17,277 nucleotides of DNA from assembly GCA_016176845.1 (NCBI GenBank), contig JACOWJ010000013.1, positions 1 to 17,277 of the forward strand, in the 5' to 3' direction. Each line of letters begins with the position of its first letter. Position 1 is the first letter of the stretch. Under the pieces are notes generated by a model. The model saw nothing but the letters and a program-made list of their open reading frames with translations. It had not been told where the DNA came from and did no database searches. This document shows, one piece after another, positions 238 through 17,277 of the stretch. A program made the position numbers and the translations under genes. Origin of the DNA: Nitrospinota bacterium (GTDB taxonomy: Bacteria > 2-12-FULL-45-22 > JACOWJ01).

Positions 238-1029
238 ATGCACCACTTTCAAAACATCATCTACGAGAAAAGAGGACCGGGGGCCTGGATCTATCTGAAC
301 AGGCCCAACCTGATGAACCCGCTCAACCACGAGATCGTGCAGGAGATCGGCGAGGCGATCGAGGATGTGGAGAAAGACCTGAGCATCAAGGCAGTGGTGA
401 TCACCGGCAAAGGGAAGGCCTTCTCTGCTGGGGCCGACCTGACCTTCATCAAGCAGATCTTCGAGACTCCGGAAGGGGCTCAGGTGTTCCGGGCGTATAC
501 CCGGACTTGGGAGCGGGTCTTCTATAACCTGGAGAACTGCCGGGTACCAGTAATCGCCGCCGTGAACGGCCTGGCCCTGGCTGGCGGATTAGAGTTGGTG
601 CTGGTCTGCGACCTCGTGATCGCCTCCGAGGAGGCCCGCATTGGGGATCAGCATGCCAACTTCGGCCTGATTGCCGGAGGAGGGGGCACCCAGCGGCTGC
701 CGCGCAAGATCGGGATCAATCGGGCCAAGGAGCTCCTCATCACCGGCGACTGGCTTACCCCACAGCAGGCCATGGACTGGGGCCTGGTCAACCGGGTCGT
801 GCCGGCCAATAAGCTGGAAGAAGCGGCCACCGAGCTGGTGAACAAGATCGCCGGCAAAAGCTCCGCCGCCAGCAGGGCCGTCAAGCAGTTGGTCAATCAG
901 GGGATGCAGATGGACATCCAGGATGCCCTGCAGCTGGAGCAATGGGCCGTCCACTACCACTTCACCGGCGAGGACGTCAAGGAAGGACTGGCGGCCTTCA
1001 AAGAGAAGAGGAAGCCGGTCTTTAAGTAA
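238..1029 (+). CDS. Enoyl-CoA hydratase/isomerase (crotonase) family protein
   Basis: A 263-residue protein of normal crotonase length, probably a cytoplasmic CoA-thioester enzyme (hydratase or isomerase). The first oxyanion-hole segment is AFSAGADL (61-68) and the second is in GLALAGGLEL (111-120). Glu119 matches the first catalytic Glu of rat enoyl-CoA hydratase (Glu144). By alignment on the following GGGGTQRLPR (147-156), the second catalytic Glu (Glu164 in rat) is His139 here. The exact reaction therefore cannot be called from the fold, and classical hydratase chemistry is doubtful. The start is an ATG preceded by a strong GGAAGGAGG site. The gene appears monocistronic: a family A repeat starts at its stop codon and a terminator-like hairpin follows. 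No beta-oxidation partner gene lies nearby. Family assignment is firm; substrate is unknown. Confidence 0.93.
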   Translation: MHHFQNIIYEKRGPGAWIYLNRPNLMNPLNHEIVQEIGEAIEDVEKDLSIKAVVITGKGKAFSAGADLTFIKQIFETPEGAQVFRAYTRTWERVFYNLENCRVPVIAAVNGLALAGGLELVLVCDLVIASEEARIGDQHANFGLIAGGGGTQRLPRKIGINRAKELLITGDWLTPQQAMDWGLVNRVVPANKLEEAATELVNKIAGKSSAASRAVKQLVNQGMQMDIQDALQLEQWAVHYHFTGEDVKEGLAAFKEKRKPVFK

Positions 1030-1114
1030 GTTAGGGGCTAGGGGCTAGTGAAGAAGAACTTTTGCAAACCCTTAGCCTCTAGCCACTTAAAAATGGAAAT
1101 TTCTATACGATTAA
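1030..1114 (+). repeat. Family A heptamer-arm palindromic repeat, copy 1
   Basis: The left arm is GTTAGGGGCTAGGGGCTAG, the centre is TGAAGAAGAACTTTTGC, the right arm is a C-rich partial complement (around 1069-1086), and the tail is AAAAATGGAAATTTCTATAC followed by GATTAA. The left end (AAGTTAGGG) overlaps the last two bases of the crotonase TAA stop. The copy lies in the sense orientation of that gene, so it would form part of its mRNA 3' end. The right arm is imperfect. Confidence 0.85.
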
Positions 1115-1147
1115 ATTATCATGGTTATCGGTAAAACGCCAAGGCTG

Positions 1148-1185
1148 CCCGCAGGGAGATGACGCACCGTGTCCCTGCGGGTTTT
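1148..1185 (+). terminator. Probable intrinsic terminator after the crotonase gene
   Basis: A perfect 10-bp stem is formed by CCCGCAGGGA (1148-1157) and TCCCTGCGGG (1172-1181), with a 14-nt loop and then TTTTCTC. The T-run is short but the stem is very stable. An in-frame GTG at 1169 lies within this hairpin, which argues against it as the start of the next gene. Confidence 0.6.
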
Positions 1186-1206
1186 CTCAAGGTCAAAGGC
1201 ATTCAA

Positions 1207-1215
1207 AAAGGAGGG
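1207..1215 (+). promoter_or_regulatory. Ribosome-binding site that decides a TTG start
   Basis: AAAGGAGGG lies 5 nt (counted from GGAGG) before TTG at 1220. This is the best Shine-Dalgarno match around this gene. It places the start 51 nt downstream of the longest possible start (GTG at 1169). Confidence 0.6.
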
Positions 1216-1219
1216 TCTC

Positions 1220-1720
1220 TTGCTTCTCTGGCTTAAGAAGGGTCTATGGATTGCCCTGATACTGGTTTTCTGTGGGGTGGGGGTGCCGTCTTCCTCCTAT
1301 GCAACACCCCCCACATGGGAGAATGACAGCGAGAACGCGGTCCTCTTCCTCCCGATCAAATTGCCCTGGTACGCCCTAAAGTTCCTCTTTTATGAGCTCC
1401 CCAAGGCTGGCTTCTATCGATTGCCGGTGGCGACCGCCGACCGGTTCGAGGGGCCTCAGCCTCGCAAGCCGAGGGTGGCCCAGCTCATCGAGGAACTGAA
1501 CGATGAGGACCTCCTGGTCAGGGATTTCCTCCTGTTAGAGCTCAGGAAAGAGACCGGACAAGGTCTGACCTCTCGCCCCTTCTCCGATCCCGAGCAACAG
1601 AAGGCCTCCGTTCATTGGTGGAACCGATGGTGGCGGGCGAATCAGGGGGGGATCTCGAATGGAAATCGGGTGCCCGAGGCAGGTGAGCCTCGGGTAAAAG
1701 GCGCTGCCGGGGCAGATTAG
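1220..1720 (+). CDS. Small exported protein with HEAT-like C-terminal motif, function unknown
   Basis: From the TTG start this is 166 residues. The N-terminus is a signal peptide: a Lys-Lys n-region at 6-7, a hydrophobic core at about 9-22, and likely cleavage after SSSYA (Ala28). After a hydrophobic/aromatic stretch (about 41-70) comes an acidic-hydrophobic helix pair (about 87-110), then an ETGQ motif and a Trp-rich end, HWWNRWW (132-138). I recognise this pattern from HEAT-repeat-like proteins, where a final helix is followed by a Thr-Gly turn and a W-x-x-W-W segment. The last 25 or so residues look disordered. The protein is probably periplasmic or surface-associated. The gene overlaps the convergent lipoprotein gene by 4 nt at the 3' ends. 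No specific function can be assigned. Confidence 0.7.
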   Translation: MLLWLKKGLWIALILVFCGVGVPSSSYATPPTWENDSENAVLFLPIKLPWYALKFLFYELPKAGFYRLPVATADRFEGPQPRKPRVAQLIEELNDEDLLVRDFLLLELRKETGQGLTSRPFSDPEQQKASVHWWNRWWRANQGGISNGNRVPEAGEPRVKGAAGAD

Positions 1721-2406
1721 GGTTGGTTTTGCTTCTCCAGGAGGATATCCAGCTCCTTTAACCGCTTGAGCTCCGCCCTCAGGTCGGCATTCTCCCCTTT
1801 GATCTTCTCGATCCTCTGCTGGAGGCCTTCCATCTCCCGCTTGAGGGCTTCCCTTTCCTGCAAGAGCCGCTCCTGCTCCGCCTTCGCCCGGGCCAATTCC
1901 TGCACCAGGGCCTCCTGGGTCTGATGGACCTCCAGTGCTTTCTTTTCGCCCTTTTCCAGCTGATCGATGAGCCGGATCAAGGCCTCGGCCCAAGGCCGCT
2001 GAGGAATAGTTGGATAGCGCTCAATCAGGGAATGAAGGACCTCCCGGGCCTTCCCGCGGTCTGACGTAGGCCCTGCAGGATTCTGAAGATAGAGATAGCC
2101 CACCCGAAAGAGGGCTTTCGGCCCTTCCATGGTCTGAGGGTAAAGATCGGCAACCCGTTGATAGGTCTCGATCGCCTCCTGAAACCGGCCCTCTTTGAAG
2201 AGCTCCTCCGCCTGGCCGAAGGCCTCTCTGGCCTTATGGCGCTCCTCGGCCGCAGGCTTCGTCGGCCCGGGCGAGGGAGGGACTACGGCCCCGGCCGCGC
2301 TGGGGGCGGCGTTGGGGGCAGATGGGGTAGGGGGGGGAAGGGGAGGCGGAGGGACGACGGATGGGGTGGCACACCCCGCAAGGGCCAGGGCCAGCAATAA
2401 GACCAC
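1717..2406 (-). CDS. Predicted lipoprotein with TPR-like region and C-terminal coiled coil
   Basis: From GTG at 2406 this is 229 residues. A hydrophobic signal ends in the lipobox LALAGC, giving lipidated Cys12. Next come a Pro/Ala-rich linker (about 15-50), a TPR-like helical region (about 58-135, including EGRFQEAIETYQRV and a second helix pair ending in LIERYP), and a long Glu/Lys/Leu-rich coiled coil (about 150-225). This resembles periplasmic, membrane-anchored scaffold proteins of the CpoB/YbgF kind, but with the coiled coil after the TPR part; it is not a clear orthologue. The start is uncertain. A TTG at 2529 would add 41 residues and a more basic n-region (KGRHIGR) but would overlap the upstream gene by 97 nt. 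GTG 2406 leaves a 26-nt gap but has a weak ribosome site. It is last in a probable glyS-GGDEF-lipoprotein operon. Confidence 0.75.
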   Translation of the reverse strand: MVLLLALALAGCATPSVVPPPPLPPPTPSAPNAAPSAAGAVVPPSPGPTKPAAEERHKAREAFGQAEELFKEGRFQEAIETYQRVADLYPQTMEGPKALFRVGYLYLQNPAGPTSDRGKAREVLHSLIERYPTIPQRPWAEALIRLIDQLEKGEKKALEVHQTQEALVQELARAKAEQERLLQEREALKREMEGLQQRIEKIKGENADLRAELKRLKELDILLEKQNQP

Positions 2407-2432
2407 TCGCCCGATATGCCGGCCTTTGGCGC

Positions 2433-3791
2433 TTAGGTGGTTCGGGCGATGGACGCCATGGCCTGCTTGATGTCCTTGACGTAGTTGCTTCCCGGCAAGG
2501 ATTTGGCATATTCCTTTAACTCGGCGCAAGCCTCCGAGACCTCCAGGGGGCTGTGAAATTTTCCCCCTTCCACGGTAACAACGGCCAGGGAGATGGACAT
2601 CAACGGAAACCGCTGCTCCATCCCCCGGCGGTCATGGCCTTCGATATAGCCCCTAGTGACATCCTGCAGGCTATAGAAACTGGGAATGATTCGGTCGAAC
2701 TCCTGGACAATCCGGCTACAGATAGCATCGATTCGCGAAGGGTCCGTCATAATGATCACGAAATCGTCCCCGCCGATATGTCCGACTAAATCCCAGCCCT
2801 GGCCCAGTTCCTTCACGCTGCTCTCCAGGATTCGGGCCGTCTCCTTGATCACCTCGCTCGCCCAGGCGTACCCATATCGATCGGCATAAGCCTTGAAATT
2901 GTCCAGGTCGGAGTGACAGAGAGCAAACTCTTTTCCCCCCTTCAGAAGCTCCTCCAGCCGCCGTTGAATCACCAAGTTCCCGGGCAGCCGAGTCAGCGGG
3001 CTGGCGTCCAGGTTGATCTCCTCCAACTTCTTCAGCCGTTGGGCCATCAACCGAAAGGCGTGAGCCAGCTCGCCCACCTCGTCTTTAGCCTTTACCCGAA
3101 GGTTGTAATCGAAATCGCCTTCCGCGATGTGCTGGGTGGCCCGCTTCAGCTCCTTGATCGAGGAGGAAATGCTCAGGGTAATGGCCACCGCCAGGACGAT
3201 GCCTATGAGCAGGCTGAGGATACCCAGGATCAGAGTCAGTGCCGCCGCCCTCTCGCCCTTGCGTCTCAGCTCCACCATCCCGACATCTAGGGCCTGGTAG
3301 GAGGACCTCTCCAGCCCTTTGATCACTTCGATCAACCGCTTCAGGCGCTGAGTCCCCTCATGTTGAGAAAGCAGAGAGGGATCCAAGGGGCCTTCCTTCA
3401 GCACCTGGGGGACCTGTTGGAGGAAATGAGCCTCGTAGTTGGCATGCAAAGAGCCGATTCGTTTGAGCTTTCTTCTCTTCTCCCGCGGGGCCTGCTTCTG
3501 GAGATGGGCCAAAAGTTTTTTGAAATCCTGGCCTCTTGCCTGGAAGAGCGCCACGAAGTCCGGGTCCTTGGAGACCAAAAATTTCTTCTCGCTGCGCTCT
3601 TGAGCCACCAAGGTGCTCACCAGATCCTTGGAACGATCGATCATGGGAAAGTTATCGTTTACGATGAACTTGGTGATCTGATTCTGTTGGTAAAGGCCAT
3701 ATAGGGCATAAGCCCCCACTGCGATGGTCAAAAGGGACATCGAAAGATAGCCCAACAACATCTTCTTGGCGATGGTGAGCTTAAGAGCCAT
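2433..3791 (-). CDS. Membrane HAMP-GGDEF protein (putative diguanylate cyclase, variant active site)
   Basis: A 452-residue protein. Transmembrane helices lie at about 11-33 and 182-206 and enclose a mostly helical periplasmic sensor region of about 150 residues. A HAMP linker (about 207-258) and a GGDEF-family domain (about 262-435) follow. Family marks are LTRLPGN (266-272), DLDNF (295-299) and the signature GGDDF (340-344). The fourth signature residue is Asp rather than Glu. The upstream inhibitory-site position reads Q-G-W-D rather than RxxD, so c-di-GMP product inhibition is not expected. The two acidic metal-ligand positions are kept, so activity is possible but not certain. ATG 3791 has a GGAAGAG site, and the gene overlaps the end of glyS by 11 nt, which suggests translational coupling. 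The GGDEF family call is firm; enzymatic output is open. Confidence 0.88.
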
Positions 3792-5094
3792 CTCTTCCGC
3801 ATAGTCTCTCTAGGAGATAGGTCTCCAGCCCCTCGAGGGAGATCCGATCTTGGAGCATGGAGTCTCGTTCTCGAACGGTTACGGCGTGATCGGTCAGGGA
3901 TTGGACATCTACCGTCACGCAGTAAGGGGTCCCGATCTCATCTTGCCGCCGGTAGAGGCGACCGATGGAGCCGGTATCGTCATAGCGGGTGACGAATTGG
4001 CGCCGCAGATCCCTCGCGATCGATCGGGCCAGCTCCACCAGGTCGGGGCGGTTGCGCAGCAGAGGCAATACGGCCACCTTGATGGGGGCCAGGGTGGGGT
4101 GCAGGCCCAGCACGACCCGTTTCTCTCCCCGGACCTCCTCCTCTCGGTAGGCATCCAGCAGGAAGGCCAGGGTGGCCCGGTCGGCCCCGGCCGAGGGCTC
4201 GATTACGTACGGGATGAACCGCTCCTTCTGGAGGTCATCGAAGAAGCTCAAATCCTTGCGACTATACTGGGCATGTTGCTTGAGATCGAAGTCGGTCCGG
4301 TTGGCGATCCCCTCCAGCTCCGACCAGCCCATGGGAAAGAGGTACTCGATGTCGTAACAGCCCTTGGCGTAATGGGCCAGCTCATCCGGACCATGCTCGC
4401 GCAGGCGCAGATTGTCCTTCTCGATCCCGTACTTGCTGTACCACTGGAACCGCTCCTGGACCCAGTATTCGTGCCAATGCTGATCCGTCCCGGGCTCCAC
4501 GAAGTACTCGATCTCCATCTGTTCAAACTCGCGGGTGCGGAAGGTGAAGTTGCCCGGGGTGATCTCGTTGCGAAAGGCCTTCCCGATCTGGGCAATGCCG
4601 AAAGGAAGGCGGCGACGCATGGTTGTCTGGACGTTGACGAAGTTGGTAAAGATGCCCTGAGCCGTCTCAGGTCTCAGATAGACCACCGCGGCCTCATCCT
4701 CCACGGGCCCCATGAAGGTCTTGAACATCAGGTTGAATTGGCGGGCCTCGGTGAACTCCCCCCCGCACTCCGGGCAGCGAGCGGTTTGGAGGGAATCGGC
4801 CTTGAACCTCTTCTTGCAAGATTTGCAGTCCACCAAAGGATCCGTGAAGCCCTGAACATGCCCGGAGGCCACCCAAACCTGGGGATGCATGAGGATCGCG
4901 GCATCCAATCCTTCCATGTCCTCCCGCTGGTAGACCATCTCCCGCCACCAGGCCTCTTTGACGTTGCGCTTCAGTTCCGCCCCGAGGGGACCGTAATCCC
5001 AGGTGCTCCCCACGCCCCCATAGATCTCGCTGTTCTGAAAGATAAACCCCCTCCTCTTACAAAGGGAGACCACTTTGTCCATATCTCTGATCAT
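3781..5094 (-). CDS. glyS: Glycyl-tRNA synthetase, dimeric (eukaryote-like class II) type
   Basis: A 437-residue class IIa aminoacyl-tRNA synthetase that charges tRNA-Gly. Visible marks are RPETAQGIF (141-149), motif 2 [19 protein letters not shown] (174-192), [10 protein letters not shown] (262-271) and motif 3 GADRATLAF (303-311). A C-terminal anticodon-binding domain begins near [15 protein letters not shown] (331-345). Four cysteines, C90/C93 and C107/C110, form a probable zinc site in the insertion after the first catalytic segment. Length fits the alpha-2 family and not the bacterial GlyQ/GlyS tetramer. ATG 5094 has no nearby Shine-Dalgarno; a second ATG four codons on (5082) is possible, and an in-frame CTG at 5133 lies 11 nt from AAAGGAGG. 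It is first gene of a probable leftward operon. Confidence 0.96.
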
Positions 5095-5104
5095 CGAACA
5101 TTCG

Positions 5105-5128
5105 CGCAGGAAACCACCCGTTTCCGCG
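5105..5128 (-). other. Hairpin in the glyS leader just before the start codon
   Basis: On the minus strand GGAAAC and GTTTCC enclose a five-base GGGTG loop. Outer CGC/GCG pairs extend the stem past one bulged T. It sits 10 nt upstream of the ATG at 5094, between that codon and the strong AAAGGAGG at 5152-5145. It could affect translation initiation of glyS. No poly-T run follows, so it is not an intrinsic terminator. Confidence 0.4.
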
Positions 5129-5160
5129 GGCAGAGAAGTGCGCCCCTCCTTTCGGTTGGA

Positions 5161-5248
5161 GTTAAGTCAGGGATTAGGGATTAGTGATGAAGAGCTTCGC
5201 TAATCCCTAGCCTCTGGCCGCTTAAAATGGAAATTCCTATACGATTAA
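5161..5248 (+). repeat. Family A repeat, copy 2
   Basis: The left arm is CAGGGATTAGGGATTAG and the centre is TGATGAAGAGCTTCGC. The right arm starts CTAATCCCTAGCCTC, and the tail is TTAAAATGGAAATTCCTATA followed by CGATTAA. The arms pair well (TAGGGATTAG with CTAATCCCTA). It lies between glyS and its predicted promoter, so a glyS transcript would carry it in antisense. Confidence 0.85.
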
Positions 5249-5255
5249 GAAATTA

Positions 5256-5284
5256 GACAGGGTGAACAGGATTTACAGGATGGA
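5256..5284. repeat. Short ACAGGA nonamer repeat
   Basis: Three imperfect direct units of nine bases follow one another: ACAGGGTGA, ACAGGATTT and ACAGGATGG. This GAACAGGATTTACAGGAT-type string is familiar to me as a dispersed intergenic repeat in environmental genomes, from memory only. It begins about 8 nt after family A copy 2. Confidence 0.5.
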
Positions 5285-5336
5285 TTCGCTACTGCGCGCC
5301 TTCAAAGACGGGGCTCGCCGTAGAAAGCCAGGGTCT

Positions 5337-5365
5337 AAAGTAACATTTTTGGCTGGAAGTGTCAA
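5337..5365 (-). promoter_or_regulatory. Putative promoter for the glyS operon
   Basis: On the minus strand a perfect -35 box TTGACA (5365-5360) is followed by a 17-nt spacer and TACTTT (5342-5337). A TG precedes the -10 box in extended -10 position. Transcription would start near 5330 and give a leader of about 235 nt that runs through the ACAGGA repeat and family A copy 2 in antisense. The -10 box matches only 3/6. Confidence 0.4.
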
Positions 5366-5386
5366 GTTAGCAGGGATTAGGGCTAA
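5363..5386 (+). repeat. Degenerate family A left-arm relic
   Basis: CAAGTTAG, then CAGGGATTAGGGCTAA, matches the left end and two heptamers of family A. There is no centre, right arm or tail. It could be a truncated eighth copy, and it overlaps the putative glyS -35 box by three bases. Confidence 0.4.
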
Positions 5387-5417
5387 GTACAGCTCCACGG
5401 GAAAGGGTGTCCAATAA

Positions 5418-5476
5418 ACCGCAGAGACGCAGAGGGAAAACTTTGAAAAATCTCTGCGCCTCTGCGTCTCTGCGGT
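5418..5476. repeat. Palindromic CGCAGAGA/TCTCTGCG repeat
   Basis: Perfect 18-bp inverted arms, ACCGCAGAGACGCAGAGG (5418-5435) and its complement (5459-5476), enclose a 23-nt A/T-rich loop. The arms are built of octamers: two CGCAGAG units on the left, and three on the right if the extra TCTCTGCG at 5451-5458 is counted. It is unrelated in sequence to family A but has the same plan. It lies between the predicted glyS promoter and the 3' end of the UroD-family gene. The rest of 5095-5555 shows no gene I can support. Confidence 0.75.
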
Positions 5477-5555
5477 AAATGGGTACTTTATTGTGTGGCG
5501 TTATACTAAGGGCTCGTTAAACTACCCCCCGTCAAAAAAGGAGCTCCCTTTGCCA

Positions 5556-6557
5556 TCAAGGCAACCCGGGGTGGCCCGAACCCTGCGATCGGGGATAGCG
5601 GCCAAAACGGAGGGCGGCCCGATACATGGTCCGCACATTTCGGGGATCGAGCCCCGGACCCAAACCCCCTGAGGTACCGAAGATATAGCCCCCGCCAGGG
5701 GCTGCCACCCGAAGGGTCTCCCGGACCGTCCGCTCGACCTCCTCCCGGGTCGCGGAGGAGGAGAGCAGGTGCAAGTCCAGGTTGCCCATCAGGCAGAGCC
5801 GATCCCCGTATTTCCGCTTGATGGCGCCGATCTCCATGCCGGCCGAAGGTTGCAAGGAATGCAGCCCATGAATGCCCAGGGCGACCAGATCGTCCAGGAT
5901 CGCATGGAGTCGGCCATCCGAATGGAAGAAGACCGGGACCCCCATCTCCCCGATCTGCCCAACCTCCTCTTCGATGCCGGGGAAGACTACCTCCCGAAGC
6001 TGGGCGGGGGAAAGGAAAGTGCCGTCGTTGTAAGCCAGGTCATCGCCGATGATGACCGCCTGCGCCCCGGCCCCCACGGCTCGCCGGGCCAAAACGGCGT
6101 TCTGCCCCGCCAGCCTTCTCACCAGGGCCCTCGCCTCTCGCGAGGAGCTGACGCAGGCCATCAGGGCCTGGCCGAAGCCCATCAGGGCGCAGAGGGGACC
6201 CAACCCTCCACCCACCAAGGCAAAGACGAAGAGCTCCGTCTGTTGAGACCAGCGGCGGACCTGGGAGAGAGCTCCCCCTTCCGTCGAGGGCAGCTCCCCA
6301 CGATCCAGCAGCTCTTGGATATCTCCACAACTTGCAGGAGGTAGTGCGAAAGGGTAGTGGGGGGGCTCGTCGAGGCCGCAGACCACCAAGTCCAAGCCCA
6401 AAGAGGCCGTGAAGCGCCGGGTCTGCTCCCAAGGGTCCCCTGTCGGCTCTTCCAGGACCTGGGCGATCAACTGGGGGTCGAGGACCAGCTCCCCCATGGG
6501 GACCCGGTCGGGCTCGCGGCGTTGGAGGGTCAGGGAAACCCGCTCTCGGGGAGTCAT
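5556..6557 (-). CDS. Uroporphyrinogen decarboxylase (URO-D) superfamily protein
   Basis: From ATG 6557 this is 333 residues. It begins MTPRERVSLTLQRREPDRVP, which matches the usual N-terminus of the UroD/MtaA-like superfamily. Inner marks are GDDLAYNDG (171-179), HSDG (212-215), a GLHSLQP-type segment (231-237) and MGNLDLHLL (257-265). The methyltransferase branch (MtaA/MtbA) uses His-x-Cys zinc ligands; here the motif is H-S-D-G without Cys, so it is not a standard corrinoid methyltransferase. It also lacks context for a true haem-pathway HemE. Function is unknown. An ATG at 6605 would add 16 residues, but these are read from a hairpin repeat (6571-6628), so I reject it. No ribosome site is visible before 6557. 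It lies downstream of kdsD on the same strand. Confidence 0.85.
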   Translation of the reverse strand: MTPRERVSLTLQRREPDRVPMGELVLDPQLIAQVLEEPTGDPWEQTRRFTASLGLDLVVCGLDEPPHYPFALPPASCGDIQELLDRGELPSTEGGALSQVRRWSQQTELFVFALVGGGLGPLCALMGFGQALMACVSSSREARALVRRLAGQNAVLARRAVGAGAQAVIIGDDLAYNDGTFLSPAQLREVVFPGIEEEVGQIGEMGVPVFFHSDGRLHAILDDLVALGIHGLHSLQPSAGMEIGAIKRKYGDRLCLMGNLDLHLLSSSATREEVERTVRETLRVAAPGGGYIFGTSGGLGPGLDPRNVRTMYRAALRFGRYPRSQGSGHPGLP

Positions 6558-6570
6558 AAGATCGGCTCGT

Positions 6571-6628
6571 GGCTCATAGCTCATAGCGAATAGCTCATGA
6601 CTCATGGCCCGTAAACGCTATGAGCTAT
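6571..6628. repeat. Palindromic GCTCATA heptamer repeat
   Basis: Tandem heptamers GCTCATA, GCTCATA, GCGAATA, GCTCATG and ACTCATG run from 6572. After a short spacer come inverted units GCTATGA and GCTATAA. Perfect 13-bp arms are ATAGCTCATAGCG (6576-6588) and CGCTATGAGCTAT (6616-6628). GAGCTATGAGCC recurs at 6737-6748, past family A copy 3, as if copy 3 had entered this repeat. It spans the upstream alternative start codons of the UroD-family gene. Confidence 0.65.
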
Positions 6629-6630
6629 AA

Positions 6631-6735
6631 ATTAGGGATTAGGGGCTAGGGGCTGGTAAGAAAGAAGAGCTTTTGCTAATCCCTAGCCCCTAGTCCCTAG
6701 TCCCTAGCCCCTAAAAATGGAAATTCCTATACGAT
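6631..6735 (+). repeat. Family A repeat, copy 3 (longest right arm)
   Basis: The left arm has three heptamers (TTAGGGA, TTAGGGG, CTAGGGG). The centre is TAAGAAAGAAGAGCTTTTGC. The right arm has five heptamers (CTAATCC, CTAGCCC, CTAGTCC, CTAGTCC, CTAGCCC), and the tail is AAAAATGGAAATTCCTATAC followed by GA. GAGCTAT occurs on both sides (6622-6628 and 6737-6743), a possible 7-bp target duplication, though the flanking GCTCATA repeat also explains it. It fills the kdsD to UroD-family gap. Confidence 0.9.
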
Positions 6736-6750
6736 CGAGCTATGAGCCAT

Positions 6751-7713
6751 TCAAACCACTCCGGCCTTGAGCATGTCGTGGAGGTGGACGATGCCCTCGG
6801 CCCTTCGCTGCTCATCCAGGATCAGCAGGCTGGTGATGGCGTAGTACTCCATCACCTGAATGGCCTGAGCCGCCAGAGACTCGCCCTCGATCGTCTTGGG
6901 GTTGACGGTCATGATCTCCTGGGCGGTCTTGTGAAAAAGGTCGGTCTCCCTCTCCATCAGGCGCCGCAGGTCCCCATCGGTGACGATCCCATGGACGATT
7001 CCCTCCTCGTCCACCACGCTCGTCACCCCCAACCCTTTGGAGGAGATCTCGTAGATCACATCCTTCAGGAGGGCTTCCCGGGTCACTCGGGGAACTTCCT
7101 TTCCGGTATGCATGAGGTCTTTGACTTTCAGGAGAAGCCTCTTCCCCAACGATCCCCCGGGGTGGAACAGGGCAAAGTCCTCCTTCCGGAGCCCTTTCCT
7201 CTGCAAGAGGGCAACGGCGAGGGCATCCCCCATCGCCAGGGTGGCCGTAGTGCTGGCCGTGGGCACCAGGCCCAAGGGACAGGCCTCCTCCTCCACCCCC
7301 ACATCCAGGACGATATCGCTTTCCCGGGCCAGGGTCGAGCTCAGGTTTCCCGTGATCCCGATCAGGGGGACGCGGAAACGTTTGATGGCGGGCAGGAGCC
7401 GGAGCACCTCTTCGGTCTCGCCGCTGTTGGAGATTCCCAGGAGCAAGTCCCCCCGCGTCACCATCCCCAGGTCACCGTGGATCCCCTCAGCCGGATGGAG
7501 GAAAAGGGCCGGGGTGCCGATGCTGGCGAAGGTGGAGGTGATCTTCTTGCCGATCAATCCCGACTTGCCCATTCCGGTGATCACCACCCTCCCCTGACAG
7601 CGATGGATCAGATCCACCGCCTGGAGAAACTCTTCCCCGATCCGACCCGCCAGGGCCGCCACCGCCCGACTCTCCACCAGCAATGCCTTCTTGGCCAGCT
7701 CCAGGATCTCCAT
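6751..7713 (-). CDS. kdsD: Arabinose-5-phosphate isomerase (KdsD/KpsF family)
   Basis: A 320-residue cytoplasmic enzyme that interconverts ribulose-5-phosphate and arabinose-5-phosphate, the first step to Kdo of lipopolysaccharide. The N-terminal SIS sugar-phosphate domain shows GMGKSG (47-52), ISNSGETEEV (94-103) and PTASTTATLAMGDALA (151-166). HPGG (184-187) carries the His linked to catalysis in this family. Two CBS domains follow (about 199-260 and 265-320), as in full-length KdsD. The ATG has an AGAGGA site 4 nt upstream. Family A copy 4 begins immediately beyond that site, so the gene's leader is mostly repeat sequence. No other Kdo or Lpt gene lies in the window. A divergent promoter region shared with purB is proposed. 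Confidence 0.95.
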   Translation of the reverse strand: MEILELAKKALLVESRAVAALAGRIGEEFLQAVDLIHRCQGRVVITGMGKSGLIGKKITSTFASIGTPALFLHPAEGIHGDLGMVTRGDLLLGISNSGETEEVLRLLPAIKRFRVPLIGITGNLSSTLARESDIVLDVGVEEEACPLGLVPTASTTATLAMGDALAVALLQRKGLRKEDFALFHPGGSLGKRLLLKVKDLMHTGKEVPRVTREALLKDVIYEISSKGLGVTSVVDEEGIVHGIVTDGDLRRLMERETDLFHKTAQEIMTVNPKTIEGESLAAQAIQVMEYYAITSLLILDEQRRAEGIVHLHDMLKAGVV

Positions 7714-7721
7714 CGTTCCTC

Positions 7722-7813
7722 TTAGGGGTTAGGGATTAGCGATTAGGGGTTAGTGAAGAAGAGGTTTCGCTAATCCCTGGCCTATAGCCCCTTAAAATGG
7801 GAATTCCTATACA
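7722..7813 (+). repeat. Family A repeat, copy 4
   Basis: Left-arm heptamers are TTAGGGG, TTAGGGA, TTAGCGA and TTAGGGG. The centre is TGAAGAAGAGGTTTCGC, the right arm is CTAATCCCTGGCCTATAGCC, and the tail is TTAAAATGGGAATTCCTATA followed by CA. Its left end abuts the kdsD ribosome site and it is in antisense to kdsD. It is in direct tandem with copy 5. Confidence 0.88.
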
Positions 7814-7815
7814 AG

Positions 7816-7913
7816 CAAGTTAGGGACTAGGGATTATGGGCTAGGGGCTAGTGAAGAAGAACTTTTGCTACCCCCTAGCCTCTAGCCCTTTAAAAATGGG
7901 AATTCCTATACGA
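7816..7913 (+). repeat. Family A repeat, copy 5
   Basis: The left end is CAAGTTAGGG, followed by heptamers with four G-runs (7823-7847). The centre is TGAAGAAGAACTTTTGC, the right arm is TACCCCCTAGCCTCTAGCCC, and the tail is AAAAATGGGAATTCCTATAC followed by GA. AGCAAGTT flanks it on both sides (7814-7821 and 7913-7920). This is either a target duplication or the start of a further truncated unit. Confidence 0.88.
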
Positions 7914-7921
7914 GCAAGTTC

Positions 7922-8098: not shown

Positions 8099-9421
8099 GT
8101 GATCGATCGCTACAGCCGGCCCCGGATGGTCCGGGTCTGGTCCCCGGAAAACAAGGTGGACCAATGGTTAGCCATTGAGCTGTTGGCCTTGGAGGCCTTG
8201 AAGGAATTGGGAGAGGTCCCGGAGGCCTCCCTGAGGAGGATTCGCGAGAAGGCTCGCTACGATTTGGACCGGATGAACCAGATCGAGCAGGAGGTTAAAC
8301 ACGATGTCATCGCCTTCCTGACCAATGTGGGCGAATACGTGGGTGAAGATGCCCGCTACCTACATTATGGGATGGCCTCCTCCGACATCCTGGATACCGG
8401 CCTGGCGCTGCAGCTCCGGGAGGCCGCGGACCTCATTCTGGAGGGGATCGCCGCGTTATCCCGGGCCTTGGAAGAGAAGGCCGGGGAGCACCAGTACACC
8501 GTCATGATCGGCCGTACCCATGGGGTCCATGCCGAACCGATCACCTTTGGCCTGAAGCTCGCCGGTTGGTACCAGGAGATCCAGCGCAGCCGAGAGCGGC
8601 TGGTGCGGGCCCGGGAGGGGATCTGCGTCGGCAAAATCTCGGGGGTGGTGGGAACCTATGCGCATATCCCCCCCTTCGTGGAGGGCTACGTGTGCCAACG
8701 CCTTGGCCTGAAGCCCGCTCCCATCTCCACCCAGATCCTCCAGCGCGATCGGCACGCCGAGCTCTTGATGTCCCTGGCGATCCTCGCCAGTTCCCTGGAG
8801 AAGTTTGCCCTGGAGATCAGACATCTGCAGCGGACCGAGGTGCAGGAGGCCGAAGAGCTTTTCGGCGAAGGGCAAAAGGGCTCTTCCGCCATGCCTCACA
8901 AGCGAAATTCGATCGGGGCCGAGCAGCTATGCGGTCTGGCCCGGCTGATCCGCTCTTACGCCTGGGCCGCCTTGGAAGACATCCCCCTCTGGCACGAGCG
9001 AGACATCAGCCACTCCTCGGTCGAGCGGGTCATCCTCCCCGATAGCACCATCCTGACCGATTACATGCTGTCCAAGATGACCGACCTGATCGCTCATCTG
9101 CAGGTCTATCCAAGGCGGATGCAGGCCAACCTTCAGTTAACCGGAGGGTTCCACTTCTCCCAGGGGGTGATGTTGGCCCTGATTCGCAAAGGGCTCCCTC
9201 GGGAGGAGGCCTACCGGATCGTCCAGCGCCAGGCGATGGACGCCTGGATGCACGGGGTGGAGTTGAAGGAGCTGCTGGCTCGGAGCGAAGAGGTCCAACG
9301 CCACTTGACGGCCGAGGAGCTGTCGGCCTGTTTTGACCCCCACAATCACCTGCGTCATGTGGAGGAGATCTTTCAGCGAGTATTTCCGGCGAGGAATTGC
9401 GGTCCGCAAGTTAGGGATTAG
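8099..9421 (+). CDS. purB: Adenylosuccinate lyase
   Basis: A 440-residue enzyme of the fumarase/aspartase superfamily. It splits SAICAR to AICAR and adenylosuccinate to AMP, releasing fumarate each time. His68 (EVKHDVIAF) and His141 (GRTHGVHAEP) fall where the Bacillus PurB active-site histidines lie. The lyase signature is GSSAMPHKRN (261-270). The GTG start has AAAGGG 8 nt upstream. The normal C-terminus seems to end near EEIFQRVFP; the last ten residues (ARNCGPQVRD) run towards and into family A copy 6, whose TAG (9419-9421) is the stop codon. The tail is therefore repeat-derived in part. It is first gene of the purine operon. Confidence 0.97.
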   Translation: MIDRYSRPRMVRVWSPENKVDQWLAIELLALEALKELGEVPEASLRRIREKARYDLDRMNQIEQEVKHDVIAFLTNVGEYVGEDARYLHYGMASSDILDTGLALQLREAADLILEGIAALSRALEEKAGEHQYTVMIGRTHGVHAEPITFGLKLAGWYQEIQRSRERLVRAREGICVGKISGVVGTYAHIPPFVEGYVCQRLGLKPAPISTQILQRDRHAELLMSLAILASSLEKFALEIRHLQRTEVQEAEELFGEGQKGSSAMPHKRNSIGAEQLCGLARLIRSYAWAALEDIPLWHERDISHSSVERVILPDSTILTDYMLSKMTDLIAHLQVYPRRMQANLQLTGGFHFSQGVMLALIRKGLPREEAYRIVQRQAMDAWMHGVELKELLARSEEVQRHLTAEELSACFDPHNHLRHVEEIFQRVFPARNCGPQVRD

Positions 9422-9495
9422 GGATTAGGGGCTAGGGACTAGTAAGAAAGAAGAGCTTTTGCTAATCCCTAGCCCCTAGTCCCTAGCCCCTAAAA
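9407..9495 (+). repeat. Family A repeat, copy 6 (inside the purine operon, tail lost)
   Basis: The left end is CAAGTTAGGG, with heptamers holding four G-runs (9414-9437). The centre is TAAGAAAGAAGAGCTTTTGC. The right arm is CTAATCC, CTAGCCC, CTAGTCC, CTAGCCC. After CTAAAAA the conserved tail is missing and AGGAGAGCAGCACC follows instead, with the purC ribosome site. It is nearly identical to copy 3 apart from heptamer number, so the two look recently related. Its hairpin lies in the purB-purC mRNA. Confidence 0.9.
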
Positions 9496-9503
9496 AAGGA
9501 GAG
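9492..9503 (+). promoter_or_regulatory. purC ribosome-binding site abutting a repeat
   Basis: AAAAAAGGAGAG lies where other family A copies read AAAAATGGAAAT, 10 nt before the TTG start of purC. The A-run belongs to the repeat and the GGAG may be a modified remnant of its tail. Confidence 0.55.
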
Positions 9504-9511
9504 CAGCACCA

Positions 9512-10219: not shown

Positions 10220-10234
10220 ATGGAAGGGGGGAGG

Positions 10235-10558: not shown

Positions 10559-10595
10559 AGGTCAATCGATTCCGGGCATGAGGTAATAACCCGAT

Positions 10596-12293
10596 ATGAT
10601 CCAATTCAGAGAAGAGATCGTGCACCGGCTGGCCCAAATCCCTGGCCTATCCGAAAAGCTCGTGAGACCGCTCCTGGAGAAACCGGCTGATCCCTCTTAC
10701 GGAGAGTATGCCTTACCTTGCTTCCGGCTCGCCAGGGAGTGGCGCCGCCGCCCCAATGAGATCGCGGAAGATCTGGCCCGCCAATTGGGCTCCTTCGGCT
10801 CCATCGCATCCGTCGAAAGCGTTGGACCCTACTTGAACTTTAAGATCGATCCGTTGGCCTTGACGCGTTCCGTGTTGGGGGAGATTGGAGAGAAGGGCCC
10901 CGACTATGGCTCCGACAAACTGGGAGAGGGGAAGACGATCGTGATCGACTATTCTTCACCCAACATCGCCAAGCCATTTCATATGGGGCACCTGCGCTCC
11001 ACCATCCTGGGGAGCTCCCTCAAACAGATCTTTTCCACCCTCGGCTACCGCGTGGCTTCCATCAACTTCCTGGGAGATTGGGGGACGCAGTTTGGCCTTT
11101 TGGCCCTCGCCTACCAGAAATGGGGCGACAATCAGGAGCTCGAGGCCCGCCCCATCCGTTACCTCTATGAGCTCTATGTGAAGATCAACCAGGCCGCGCA
11201 AGAGGAGCCCGCCATCCAAGAGGCGGCGCGCGAAAACTTCCGGCAGATGGAGGAAGGCGCCCGCGAGCCCCTCGACCTATGGAACCGCTTTCGGACCCTC
11301 TCCATCCAGGAGTACGAGCGGGTCTACAGCCGGCTGGGTGTCCATTTCGACGTCTATAGTGGGGAGAGCTTTTACCGGGAGAAGGTCCAGGGCGTCCTCG
11401 AGGAGCTGAAGGCCAAGGGCCTCCTGCAGCTCTCCCAAGGGGCCTCCATCGTCGATCTTCTGCCTTGGGGTCTCAACGTGGCGCTCCTGGCCAAGAGCGA
11501 CGGGACTACCCTCTACCTGACGCGCGACCTGGCGGCCACCCACGAGCGGTACGCCGAGTACCGCTTCCACCGGCTAATCTACGTGGTGGGCTCCGATCAA
11601 CGGCTCCACTTCACCCAGCTGTTCAAGACCCTGGAGCTGATGGGTCGGCCATGGGCAGACCGGTGCGTCCACGTGGATTTCGGTCGCATCCTGGGCATGT
11701 CAACCCGCAAGGGACAGGCCGTCTTCCTCGATGACGTCCTCGACGAGGGAAAACGGCGCGCCCTGGAGAAGATGCAGGCCAACCCGGAAAAGTTCGCTGA
11801 GGTAGCAGACCCCGACCTGACGGCCGATATCTGTGGCATGTCTGCCATCGTCTTCAGCGACCTGTCGAGGCGGCGGGTCAAAGATTACGAGTTCGACTGG
11901 GAACAGGTCCTGGCCTTCGAGGGAGATACGGGGTTATACCTGCAGAACGCCCACGCCCGGGTGGCCGGGATCATGCGCAAGTCGGGGGTCGCGCTGCCGA
12001 GCTCAATCGACTACGGGCTGTTGCTCGGCGAGGGGGAGACGCTCGATCTGGTGAGGCACCTGTCCGCCTTCCCCGAGGTGGTCCATCGGGCGGCCGAAGA
12101 GTATGAGCCCGCCTTCATCTGTACCTACCTGATCGGTCTTGCCCGGCTGCTTCATCAGGCTTACAAGGCCCTGTGGGTGCAGGGTCGGCCCCCCCCACTG
12201 GCCGAGGCCCGGCTTAAGCTCCTATGGTCGGTGAAGCAGGTGCTGGCCAACGGGATGCGGCTTCTCGGGATGACCCCGCTGGAAAGGATGTGA
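10596..12293 (+). CDS. argS: Arginyl-tRNA synthetase
   Basis: A 565-residue class I aminoacyl-tRNA synthetase of normal length. The N-terminal additional domain (about 1-90) is followed by the HIGH region, here [17 protein letters not shown] (120-136, HMGH at 129-132). GDWGTQFG (160-167) is typical of ArgRS. The KMSKS loop reads GMSTRKG (367-373). The C-terminal DALR anticodon-binding domain ends in [16 protein letters not shown] 10596 has GAGGT 11 nt upstream. The gene lies between purS and purQ on the same strand and stops 2 nt before the purQ start, so it is almost certainly transcribed with the purine genes. Function is firm; its place in the operon is the unusual part. Confidence 0.97.
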
Positions 12294-12295
12294 CC

Positions 12296-12982
12296 GTGAA
12301 ATTTGGCGTGATCGTCTTCCCCGGCTCCAACTGCGACCATGACTGCTACCATGTGATTCGACATGTAATGGGAATGCCGGTGGAGTTTGTCTGGCACAAG
12401 GAGACTCACCTGAGCGGTTTCGACTGCCTGATTCTCCCTGGAGGCTTCTCCTACGGGGACTACTTGCGTACGGGGGCCATTGCCCGCTTCTCTCCCGTGA
12501 TGCGGGCGGTAGAGGATTTCGCCGAGGCGGGTGGGCCAGTCCTGGGGATCTGCAATGGCTTCCAAATCCTGCTGGAGGCCGGGCTGCTGCCAGGGGCGAT
12601 GTTGCGCAACCGCTCCTTGAGCTTCATCTGTCAGGACGTCTATTTGTGTCTGGAGAACCCTCATATCCCCTTTACCCTTTTAGGCCACTCCAGCCAGGTC
12701 CTGCGGATGCCCATCGCTCACGGGGAGGGGAATTACTACGCGGACCCCCAAACCCTGGCGGAGCTGGAAGCAAACGGACAGGTCGTCTTTCGATACTGCA
12801 CCGCCGAGGGGGAGAAGACCGACGGGGCCAACCCCAACGGCTCCCTCCATCACATCGCCGGCATCTGCAACCGGGAGGGGAACGTGCTGGGAATCATGCC
12901 CCACCCCGAGCGGTGCTGCGAGGGCATCTTGGGGAACGAGGATGGCAAGCTGATCTTTGAGAGCATTCTGCTTACACGTTAG
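12296..12982 (+). CDS. purQ: FGAM synthase glutaminase subunit PurQ
   Basis: A 228-residue class I (triad) glutamine amidotransferase that supplies ammonia to PurL. The nucleophile is Cys86 in LGICNGFQ (83-90); His203 and Glu205 in MPHPER complete the triad. [12 protein letters not shown] (47-58) is typical of PurQ. The GTG start has GGAAAGGA 7 nt upstream, inside the end of argS. An ATG at 12224 would overlap argS by 70 nt and add residues foreign to the family. Length matches stand-alone PurQ, as expected with separate purS and small purL. Confidence 0.97.
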
Positions 12983-12996
12983 GCGGAGCGACACTT

Positions 12997-13125
12997 ATGA
13001 AGTCACAACCCCTCAACTGCAATGTTTACACAAATGCTATTCTAACCGTCCAAAACTGGCAGTCCAAATCCTTTAACCATGCGGGTTTCGGGCGATGCTA
13101 CCCGATGTTTAGGATAGGCTTTTAA
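12997..13125 (+). CDS. Possible 42-residue small ORF between purQ and purL
   Basis: ATG 12997 opens 42 codons ending in TAA at 13123, 14 nt after purQ and 13 nt before purL. GGAG lies 8 nt upstream. The peptide starts [16 protein letters not shown] and ends MFRIGF. It is rich in Asn, Cys and aromatic residues, and I recognise no motif or membrane helix. The stretch has lower GC than its neighbours. It may be a real small protein, a leader, or simply non-coding spacer; chance is quite possible at this length. Confidence 0.25.
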
Positions 13126-13138
13126 TCGAAAGGCGTCC

Positions 13139-15379
13139 ATGCAAGAACCCCCAATCACCCCGGAGCTCGTTGCCCGGCACGGGCTGACGGAAGAAGAATA
13201 CGACAGGATCCTGAAGGCCCTGGGCCGGGAGCCCACTTTCACGGAGCTGGGGATCTTCTCCGCCTCATGGAACGAGCACTGTTCCTACAAGAGCTCGAAG
13301 CCCGTCCTGAAGCTCTTCCCCACCTCAGGGGAAGATATCCTGATCGAAGCCGGAGAAGAAAATGCCGGGGTGGTGGACATTGGGGATGGGCTGGTGGTCT
13401 GCTTTAAGGTCGAGTCCCACAACCATCCCTCCGCCGTGGAGCCCTTTCAGGGAGCGGCCACGGGCGTCGGCGGCATCCTCCGCGACATTTTTACCATGGG
13501 CGCCCGGCCCATCGCTCTGCTGGATTCGCTGCGTTTCGGACCACTCACCGAGCCGAGAAACCGGTACCTTCTCCATGGAGTGGTTTCAGGGATTAGCTTC
13601 TACGGGAATTGTATGGGTGTCCCCACCGTCGGCGGGGAGGTTTACTTCGACGAGGCCTATCAGGGCAATCCCCTGGTCAACGTCCTGTGCGTTGGGATCG
13701 CCAGGAGGAAGGAGATCGTCCGGGCCCGCGCCTCGGGGACCGGGAACCCTGTTTACTACGTGGGCTCGGCCACCGGCCGAGATGGGTTGGGGGGGGCGAG
13801 CTTCGCCTCGCGGGAGCTCACGGAGGAGTCGGAGAGGGACCGGCCTGCGGTCCAGGTGGGGGATCCCTTCACGGAAAAGCTCCTCCTGGAGGCCTGTCTG
13901 GAGCTCTTCAAGACCGGCCATGTGGTGGCCATCCAGGATATGGGGGCCGCGGGCCTGACCTGCTCTACGGCCGAGATGGCGGCTCGGGGAGGTTGCGGAA
14001 TCGAGATCGACGTGGAGAAGGTGCCCCGGCGCGAGCCCGGGATGATCCCTTATGAGGTCCTGCTCTCGGAGTCCCAGGAGCGGATGCTGCTCGTCATCCA
14101 GCGGGGAAGGGAGGAGGCCGTAGAGACGATCCTCCGCAGGTGGGACCTCCACGCCGTCGCCATTGGCCGGGTGACGGACGACGGCCTCGTTCGAGTAAAG
14201 GATTGCGGCAGGGTCGTGGCGGAAATCCCGGCCCGGGCCCTGGTGGACGAGGCCCCGGTCTATGTCCGGGAGGAGCGGGAGCCCCCTTACCTGAGAGAGA
14301 CCCGGAATCTTGACCTCCGGTGCCTCGAGGAACCTCAGGATTACCAGGGAATTCTCATACGGTTGCTCTCCTCTCCCACCCTGGCCAGCAAGCAGTGGGT
14401 TTTCCGGCAGTACGACCATATGGTGCGGACCAATACGGTGGTGCTGCCTGGCTCCGATGCCGGGGTAGTCCGGATCAAAGGAACCGATAAGGCCCTGGCC
14501 CTCACCATCGATGGGAATGGCCGATACAGCTACCTGGATCCTTACGAGGGGGGGAAGATCGCGGTGGCGGAGGCGGCAAGGAATCTGGTCTGCAGTGGGG
14601 CGCGACCGTTGGCCATTACCAACTGCCTGAACTTCGGCAACCCCGAGAAGCCCGAGATCTTCTGGCAATTTCGCCGGTGCGTAGAAGGTATGGCAGAGGC
14701 CTGCCGCAGATTCAATACTCCCGTCACCGGGGGAAATGTGAGCTTTTACAACGAAGGTCCGGAAGGGGCTGTCTATCCCACTCCCGTAGTGGGGATGGTA
14801 GGACTGATCGAGGAGCTCGGCCGAATGGCGCCCATCACTGCATGGTTCAAAAATGAAGGGGACCTCATTATCCTCCTGGGCGAGACGCAGGAAGCGCTGG
14901 GAGGAAGCGAGTATCTGAAGGAGATCCATGGACGGGTGGCCGGTCTTCCTCCCCAGCTGGATCTGGAGCGAGAGGCCTCCCTCCAGCAGGCCTGCCTGGA
15001 AGCAATTCGGGCGGGAATCATTCATTCCGCCCACGATTGTTCGGAAGGAGGGCTGGCCATCGCCCTGGCGGAGTGCTGCATCTGCGGACCAGGCCATGGA
15101 AGAGGGGCCCACATTGATCTCTTCGCCCCGGAGATCCGAACAGATGCCCTGCTTTTCGGAGAGTCCCCATCGAGGATCGTCCTTTCCCTGGAGGCCCAGC
15201 ACCTGCCGCAGCTGAAAGGGATCGCTGAGGGCCGAGGGATACCGCTCAGTCTCCTTGGGCAGGTTGGGGGAGATCACTTTTCACTGGAGATGTCCGCCTC
15301 CGGCCTTTATATCCACTTGCCAATCTCGGAGTTGAAGGGGATTTGGAGTGGGGCCATAGAGCGGTGCTTACGGATATGA
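13139..15379 (+). CDS. purL: FGAM synthase large subunit PurL (small, PurS/PurQ-dependent type)
   Basis: A 746-residue ATP-dependent enzyme that converts FGAR and ammonia to FGAM. The length marks the small PurL that needs separate PurS and PurQ, both present here. Motifs are [15 protein letters not shown] (41-55, with the family's conserved His47), [20 protein letters not shown] (91-110) and [12 protein letters not shown] (262-273). The C-terminal half repeats the fold, with [13 protein letters not shown] (494-506) and [14 protein letters not shown] (629-642). The ATG has AAAGG 5 nt upstream. It ends 14 nt before purF. Confidence 0.97.
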
Positions 15380-15393
15380 AGGAGTTTCGCCCG

Positions 15394-16812
15394 ATGGAAA
15401 CAATGGAAACCATAGAAGACAAGCTTCACGAGGAATGCGGCATCTTTGGAGTCTTTGGATATCCGGAGGCGGCCAATCTGACCTATCTCGGCCTCTACTC
15501 CCTCCAGCACCGAGGGCAGGAAAGCTCCGGCATCGTTTCTTCCGACGGCCGGGAGCTATACGCCGAGGTCTCCATGGGCCTGGTGGCAGACATCTTCACC
15601 CGGGAGCGGTTGGCGCGTCTTCCCGGGGGGATCGCCATAGGCCACAACCGTTACTCGACGACCGGCTCCAGCCAGTTGAAGAACGCCCAACCGATCCTGG
15701 TGGATTTCTCCCAAGGACCCCTGGCCCTGGCCCACAATGGCAACCTGGTCAATGCCACCGAGATCCGAAAAAGGTTAGAAGCCAAGGGATCGATCTTCCG
15801 CTCCACCATGGACAGCGAAGTGATCGTCCATCTGATCGCTGCCTCCCGAGAGGGAGACCTGATCTCGCGAGTCATCGACGCCATGCAGCAATTGGAGGGG
15901 GCCTTCTCCCTTTTGATTATGACCAAGAACCAGTTGATCGGAATCCGAGATCCCCAGGGGTTCAGACCCCTCTCCCTGGGGCGGTTGGGCAATGCCCTGA
16001 TCCTGACCTCGGAGACATGCGCCTTGGACCTGATCGAAGCGCACTTCATTCGAGACCTGGAACCCGGTGAGATCCTGCGAATCGATCAAAATGGGATGGA
16101 GTCTTTTCGGCCCTTTACCCCTCGGAAATGTTCCCAGTGCGTCTTCGAGTTCATCTACTTTTCCCGGCCGGATAGCGACGTGTTCGGTCAGAACGTTCAC
16201 CTGGTGCGCAAAGCGCTTGGCAGGAACCTGGTCCATGAGCTGCCGGTGGAGGCCGATATCGTCGTGCCGGTGCCCGATTCCGGGGTCCCGGCGGCCTTGG
16301 GCTACGCCGAAGAATCTGGGATCCCCTTCGAGATGGGGCTCATCCGGAACCATTATGTGGGACGTACGTTCATCGAACCGCAACAGTCGATCCGCCATTT
16401 CGGGGTCAAGATCAAGCTCAACGCCAACAAACAGCTTTTAAAGGGAAAGAGGGTCTTGATCGTAGATGATTCGATCGTGCGGGGCACCACCAGCCGAAAG
16501 ATCGTCCAGATGGTCAGGAGGGCCGGGGCCAAAGAAGTCCATGTTCGGATCAGCTCTCCCCCCAATACCCATCCCTGCTTCTATGGGATCGATACGCCCA
16601 CCCACAGCGAGCTTATTGCCGCCAACTGCTCCGTGGAGGAGATCTGCCAATACCTGACGGCCGATACCCTCGCCTACCTGAGCCTGGATGGCCTGACCCA
16701 GGCCATTGGCCCTTCATCAGAGGACTTCTGCCTGGCCTGCTTCAATGGAAATTACCCCGCCGTAAAGCTGTTGGAAAGGTTGGAGCTGGCAGGGGAGGGA
16801 AGGAGATCATGA
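15394..16812 (+). CDS. purF: Amidophosphoribosyltransferase (Fe-S, B. subtilis type)
   Basis: A 472-residue enzyme making phosphoribosylamine from PRPP and glutamine, the committed and feedback-inhibited step. Cys15 (EECGIFG) is the N-terminal nucleophile after a 14-residue propeptide, presumably cleaved. The PRPP loop is [10 protein letters not shown] (357-366). Fe-S ligands expected from B. subtilis PurF are all present: Cys249 ([13 protein letters not shown]), Cys395 (HPCFYGID), Cys446 and Cys449 (FCLACFNG). An oxygen-sensitive cluster is thus likely. ATG 15394 is chosen because AAGGAG lies 9 nt upstream. ATG 15376, overlapping the purL stop, and ATG 15343 are longer alternatives with a foreign N-terminus. 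It is last gene of the operon. Confidence 0.97.
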
Positions 16813-16833
16813 GAGGATTATCCTTGATTCAAA

Positions 16834-16921
16834 CGTATAGGAATTTCCATTTTTAAGAGGCTAGAGGTTTGGAAGTTCTTCTTCACTAATCCCTAACCCC
16901 TAATCCCTAACCCCTAACTTG
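16834..16921 (-). repeat. Family A repeat, copy 7 (opposite orientation)
   Basis: Read on the minus strand it starts CAAGTTAGGGG directly after the gyrA TGA stop. Four G-runs follow (16914-16891), then TGAAGAAGAACTTCC, a decayed right arm with CCTCTAGCCTC, and the tail AAAAATGGAAATTCCTATAC followed by G. It fills almost the whole gap between convergent purF and gyrA. The right arm pairs poorly, so the palindrome is eroded, while the tail is intact. Confidence 0.88.
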
Positions 16922-17277
16922 TCAGGTCTTGGGCTCCTCCTCCTGTTCCACCAGCGTGATCGATACCACGCGGTCCTCATTCTCCAGATCGATGAGCTTA
17001 AACCCTTGCGTGTGACGACCAATAATCGGGACTTCATCAACCTTCAGGCGGATGCCTTTCCCCTCGGAAGTCACCAAGATCATCTCCTCTCCTTCGTGGA
17101 CCTGCCGGGTAACGACCACCTTGCCATTTTTCTTCGTGATCTTGATGTTGGTCAATCCCATTCCCCGGCGGCTCTGGGTCCGGTACTCCGATAGCCTTGT
17201 CCGCTTCCCGTACCCCTTCTCGCAGACGGTAAGCAGTATGGGCTCATCCTCCTTCACGTTGGGCAGGATCTCCGCGC
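16922..17277 (-). CDS. gyrA: DNA gyrase subunit A, C-terminal fragment (runs off the window)
   Basis: About 118 residues of the C-terminal beta-pinwheel domain, which wraps DNA in gyrase. The blade pattern is visible in ILLTVCEKGYGKRTRLSEYR, followed by TQSRRGMG (a GyrA-box-like turn), EMILVTSEGKGIRLKVDEVP and GRHTQGFKLIDL. The protein ends in a short acidic tail, VEQEEEPKT. The frame stays open to the right edge, so the start lies beyond position 17277. ParC is less likely because this last-blade pattern is typical of GyrA, but the catalytic part is not visible. It converges with purF across family A copy 7. Confidence 0.88.
   Translation of the reverse strand, partial: AEILPNVKEDEPILLTVCEKGYGKRTRLSEYRTQSRRGMGLTNIKITKKNGKVVVTRQVHEGEEMILVTSEGKGIRLKVDEVPIIGRHTQGFKLIDLENEDRVVSITLVEQEEEPKT

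Follow-up and report, generated by a model that had tools for sequence, protein, structure and literature searches.

The window (the whole stretch of 17,277 nucleotides analysed here, from a Nitrospinota bacterium) carries genes for a crotonase and for glyS, purB, purC, purF and gyrA, and among them lie seven copies of a short repeat and a probable decayed relative:

1027..1109, plus strand: copy 1, heptamer family; left tetranucleotide TAAG at 1027-1030, hairpin from the TTA at 1031; on the right the ori tail ATGGAAATTTCTATACG at 1093-1109, then the target flank ATTAAATTA.
5163..5243, plus strand: copy 2; tail at 5227-5243; antisense to both its neighbours, with the start of glyS (minus strand) on one side and the stop of a further minus-strand gene on the other.
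6628..6733, plus strand: copy 3; antisense, with a minus-strand gene on either side; left TAAATTA, tail at 6717-6733, target CGAG.
7722..7813, plus strand: copy 4; lies 5' of purB in a divergent gap; tail at 7797-7813 (ATGGGAATTCCTATACA); followed head to tail by copy 5.
7816..7912, plus strand: copy 5; CAAG at 7816-7819, tail at 7896-7912, then target CAAG.
9407..9493, plus strand: copy 6; in the purB/purC gap; CAAG at 9407-9410, long hairpin; ori tail lost, with AAAAAAGGAGAGC in its place.
16834..16921, minus strand: copy 7; in the convergent gap that separates the purF and gyrA stops; CAAG at 16918-16921, tail at 16834-16850, target TGAA on the right.
5410..5484, plus strand: probable decayed relative in the gap upstream of glyS; hairpin CCGCAGAGACGCAGAGG...CTCTGCGTCTCTGCGG, then TAAATGGG.

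Because copy 6 lacks the conserved tail, we regard it as a decayed copy. The AAAAAAGGAGAGC found at the expected tail site (within 9407-9500) resembles a ribosome-binding site for purC, and this decayed purB-purC copy may have been taken up as the purC leader. The TAAATGGG that follows the hairpin at 5410-5484 is a possible tail remnant, and the same hairpin bears an intact tail in a Syntrophobacteraceae metagenome-assembled genome (MAG; L115). At 5364-5390, TCAAGTTAGCAGGGATTAGGG resembles a further decayed heptamer copy that has neither hairpin partner nor tail. On the sense strand of the heptamer family (7722-7912 and the heptamer arrays of the window), GGG runs are found 4 nt apart (TTAGGGATTAGGGG) and could in principle form a G-quadruplex; this pattern is missing from other insert families with the same tail. 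A search of the window against Rfam gave no family at the gathering threshold.

Across the source genome (G000; 1.53 Mb, 68% complete), the tail ATGGAAATTCCTATACG has 152 matches with at most two mismatches, while the reversed control sequence has none. The repeats in question are miniature elements of about 50-140 nt, devoid of genes and present in some 150 copies, that follow a fixed order: a left tetranucleotide, a variable insert that is usually a hairpin, the constant tail AAAAWGGAAATTCCTATRCG and the target NNAN', where N' denotes the complement of the first base. The tail is constant but the insert that precedes it belongs to at least seven unrelated families, namely TTAGGGG heptamers; GGGGACAGGG...GTCCCAATAATCTGTACCC; GCTCATAGC...; GATTGCTTCGCTTCGCTCGCAATGAC..., together with a variant containing GATTCCTCGC; AAGTTTTAGG...; CCCCCCCTTGCC...; and single cases. 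Folding of the inserts gave z-scores below -2 for 63 of 94, and the mean z was negative in every family.

For the analysis of ends and positions, we used 122 tail-bearing copies in 0.50 Mb of stretches chosen around tail matches, a sample that amounts to a third of a partial genome and in which gene calls and left ends were assigned by ourselves. All copies have NAAN'TTA at the left edge, and the same motif is found 3' of the tail on the right. The constancy of the left-edge TTA is partly by construction, since the family patterns demanded T-T/C/A-A at that position; the preceding tetranucleotide and the whole right flank were unselected. The ends of the element are not inverted repeats. Neither is there any sign of a target-site duplication, as the left and right motifs share 5.74 bases within copies versus 5.69 ± 0.08 between copies. 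With neither terminal inverted repeats nor target duplication, the elements do not fit MITEs of the DDE type. Integron attC sites were also considered and were dropped on inspection, the flanks of the elements being direct and not inverted.

The tail is all that the different hairpin families have in common, which would also be expected if it were a preferred landing sequence for unrelated hairpin repeats and not part of a single mobile unit. We consider this highly improbable, because the tail directly adjoins the insert, always at the same end, and is itself followed by the target motif, because in tandem copies the repeated unit comprises insert and tail together, and because the end of the tail resembles that of a known transposon, as described below.

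The tetranucleotide targets show a regularity that is, we believe, new. On the right flank, bases 1 and 4 are complementary in 102 of the 122 copies (38.5 ± 4.8 expected from shuffling), and at the left edge in 87 of 94 (34.0 ± 4.4 expected from shuffling). This 1:4 pair is the strongest among all position pairs of the target in the source genome. It is again the strongest pair next to tails from other MAGs, where 36 of 40 are complementary (14.5 ± 2.6 expected); chance tail matches in viral contigs have it in 0 of 15. The copies within the source genome are related repeats and their targets are separate sites. Targets observed include CAAG, TAAA, AAAT, CGAG, TGAA, GAAC, CCAG and AGAT, with CAAG, TAAA, AAAT, CGAG, GAAC and others present on both sides of elements. 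Since all four base pairs are used, the complementarity suggests pairing rather than recognition of a given base. The extended motif RT-NNAN'-TTA occurs at 0.336 per kb in intergenic and 0.025 per kb in coding DNA, and is thus 13 times denser between genes.

With respect to the neighbouring genes, the preliminary description had pointed out that the repeat lies flush with the crotonase, purB and gyrA stop codons, in the sense orientation each time, and had proposed either targeted insertion at 3' ends, for example at former terminator hairpins, or selection for a role in the 3'-UTR. The three junctions are indeed as described. The crotonase stop TAA (1027-1029) is formed by bases 1-3 of TAAG, the left tetranucleotide of copy 1. 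The purB stop TAG (9419-9421) lies 12-14 nt into copy 6, and the last purB codons are likewise derived from the element: the 3' end of the gene reads CAA GTT AGG GAT TAG, and the resulting C-terminal end is absent from relatives of purB. The gyrA stop TGA (16922-16924, minus strand) directly adjoins CAAGTTAGGG of copy 7, so that of the three genes gyrA alone has its own stop, just outside the element. While these contacts are real, they involve three of the seven window copies; the remaining four are found either in a divergent gap or 5' of minus-strand genes.

Genes in the larger sample were called with a home-made hexamer caller that recovered the window genes well. In tandem gaps, 45 copies are in sense and 38 in antisense orientation (p = 0.51; all 122 copies considered), and the neighbour faced by the 5' end of the element is a stop in 57 cases and a start in 56. 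Both comparisons come out equal, and strand therefore plays no role, contrary to the orientation bias that had been proposed. Stops do lie nearer to the elements than starts (median over both ends 33 versus 93 bp, p = 2e-5), and they lie nearer to element 5' ends than to 3' ends (18 versus 64.5 bp, p = 0.02). The suspected excess of stops at the 5' edge is real, but it comes mostly from stop codons of the element itself. Genes terminate within the element in 13 of the 45 stop-facing cases, and these account for the particular nearness of 5' ends to stops; non-overlapping single copies positioned 0-25 bp after a stop number 9, against 7.0 ± 1.6 expected for uniform placement. Within 25 nt of the left edge, an in-frame stop is met in 80% of frames versus 23% at random sites, the source of these built-in stops being the left edge NAAN'TTAG plus the TAG heptamers. 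Copies are also scarce just before starts (4 with the 3' end within 25 bp, against 8.5 expected), a scarcity that fits the loss of harmful insertions.

Strong hairpins and the two differences in distance are what one would expect if the elements were kept downstream of genes, in sense, as stabilisers or terminators in the 3'-UTR. This explanation appears very improbable to us: sense and antisense copies are equally frequent, the hairpin is followed on the sense strand by AAAA and in no case by a T run, and no copy falls on any of the 13 terminator-like sites in the window. Moreover, the excess of stops stems from those inside the element, and loss of insertions in promoters may account for the distances to starts. 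A strand-specific function in the 3'-UTR thus finds no support in these data, and of the proposed targeted insertion there remains the short A+T-rich intergenic target, with no link to terminators. We conclude that stop-codon adjacency is mainly a by-product of the target and of the left-edge stops and does not reflect a preference for a gene strand: the left edge carries TAA or TAG in several frames and ends any gene that runs into it, the A+T-rich target is almost absent from genes, and insertions a short distance 5' of start codons tend to be absent.

What kind of element these repeats represent is indicated by the tail. Its last 10 nt, TTCCTATACG, are identical to the 3' end (oriIS) of ISCR2/ISVsa3, with ISCR2 known from plasmids. 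In ISCR2/ISVsa3, TTCCTATACG is located just after the IS91-family transposase gene and is followed in one record by T-GAAC; ISCR1 and another ISCR end in TTCCTATACC. The spacing differs slightly, in that the gap from CTATACG to the tetranucleotide is 2 nt in the miniature elements and 1 nt in ISCR2. Two of about five ISCR2 junctions fit the complementarity at a one-base offset, in a comparison that comprises few independent sites. Like ISCR2/ISVsa3 and other ISCR elements, the repeats have a 3' TTCCTATACG abutting a target such as GAAC, no duplication and a variable other end; unlike them, they are gene-less and about 50-140 nt long, whereas ISCR elements encode a transposase of about 500 aa and measure well over 1.5 kb. 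They share with IS91/ISCR elements an oriIS 3' end, a target of the GAAC/CAAG type and the lack of both duplication and terminal inverted repeats, and also a hairpin at the left end with a variable left part, the hairpin being a putative ter.

A precedent for the small size is found in IS801 of the IS91 family, which inserts at GAAC, GGAC, CAAG and CGAC, transposes with its transposase supplied in trans, and gives rise to miniature one-ended products (229, 360 and 679 nt) with a common right end and a start at a target-like tetranucleotide (PMC3189936). Our elements resemble these products in having only the right end in common and in starting on the left at a target-like tetranucleotide, and they would likewise be mobilised by an enzyme supplied in trans. 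They differ in that the IS801 products are pieces of their parent, whereas the miniature elements keep only about 20 nt of any parent, have left parts consisting of hairpins of many unrelated families, and reach a high copy number. In the Helraiser Helitron, a hairpin acts as terminator and sequence is captured when the hairpin is bypassed (PMC4778049). Non-autonomous Helitrons are likewise gene-less copies with a terminator hairpin and capture at the terminator side (PMC4778049), but they depend on the eukaryotic RepHel enzyme, have 5'-TC/CTAG-3' ends and an AT target, and have no evident sequence relation to our elements.

Searches for a transposase yielded little. The source genome contains one decayed remnant of an IS91-family transposase (C24:137-338) and has no match to PF14319; as a consequence, the assignment to IS91 draws on the ends, the target and the lack of duplication. 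The remnant (L146, 132-400) shows LLCQTFGEILNFHPHLHCLVNDGCFG and then LIKKVYEVDPLVCPKCQGEMKIISL, with the middle deleted. No intact transposase gene ending in the tail was detected in the source genome, in genomes of its phylum, in the order-level genomes or in those bearing the tail. Y2 genes were present in seven of the 12 genomes searched, none of them ending in the tail, and for one intact-looking gene (L161/L263) the contig breaks off 10 nt past the stop. In another IS91 subgroup (L147), ACGCTATACGTTGGAC is situated about 400 nt after a gene for a Y2 transposase of 440 aa and is possibly an ori of the same form with the target GGAC.

Similar abundance and placement are known from REP/BIME palindromes, and repeats of that kind spread by a Y1 RAYT (REP-associated tyrosine transposase) or an IS200/IS605 enzyme would account for short palindromes in intergenic DNA next to gene ends, at a density of about one per 10 kb, for the lack of target duplication and for the requirement for a hairpin. 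We nevertheless judge this very improbable. REP/BIME repeats have a Y1 enzyme and a conserved palindrome with a conserved foot, whereas the conserved part here is the 3' tail, whose end matches, together with the target, ISCR/IS91. In addition, PF01797 (Y1 transposase) had no match in the source genome, which is 68% complete, although control genomes were positive.

In view of their anatomy, the end shared with ISCR2, the target motif, the lack of duplication, the variability of the left parts and the spread across phyla, we consider it very probable that these repeats are non-autonomous miniatures of the IS91/ISCR type of rolling-circle element (Y2 HUH). Each consists of NAAN'TTA on the left, a variable insert that usually folds into a ter-like hairpin, and the constant 20-nt right end AAAAWGGAAATTCCTATRCG, which would act as oriIS. 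In this model, a transposase provided in trans would introduce a nick at the ori and displace one strand, would halt at the hairpin or at the tetranucleotide serving as terminator, and would join the freed strand to a new NNAN' site without duplication. A more specific proposal, to which we give roughly even chances, is that the mobilising enzyme chooses NNAN' through the N1:N4 base pair and that one such system seeded ori-plus-hairpin elements across phyla. CAAG and GAAC, the sites classically known for IS91, would then both exemplify a structural rule that applies to single-stranded DNA.

The elements are widely distributed. The MAGs in which the tail was found bear the labels of at least six phyla; there it mostly closes hairpins other than those of the source genome, with up to 39 exact copies in a single genome. 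Tail plus target motif was found in MAGs labelled Latescibacterota, Nitrospinota, Nitrospirae, Syntrophobacteraceae, Desulfocapsaceae, Desulfobacterales, Chloroflexi and Thermoplasmata, labels that can be wrong for single contigs. The Chloroflexi MAG JACQUA01 (L136, L143) has two of the families of the source genome, the heptamer and GCTCATAGC, with the tail, which may reflect horizontal transfer or misbinning. As for vehicles, no evidence of phage carriage was obtained: all 21 exact matches to the tail core in viral contigs were chance matches, mostly in coding DNA and lacking the target motif. A search of plasmids for the tail gave two weak Enterococcus matches only, and literature searches for the tail sequence returned nothing relevant.

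The closeness of a repeat to stop codons is thus not in itself a pointer to a regulatory role in the 3'-UTR, and a false lead is removed. The complementarity rule makes the target choice of the IS91 family directly testable in vitro with oligonucleotides. If our interpretation is correct, a large part of the short intergenic hairpin repeats of environmental bacteria, including the heptamer, ACAGG and AAGTTTTAGG repeats and others, would be not unrelated sequences but cargo of one rolling-circle system whose ori need only be about 20 nt long, and this would explain how differing repeats come to share neighbours and to spread across phyla.
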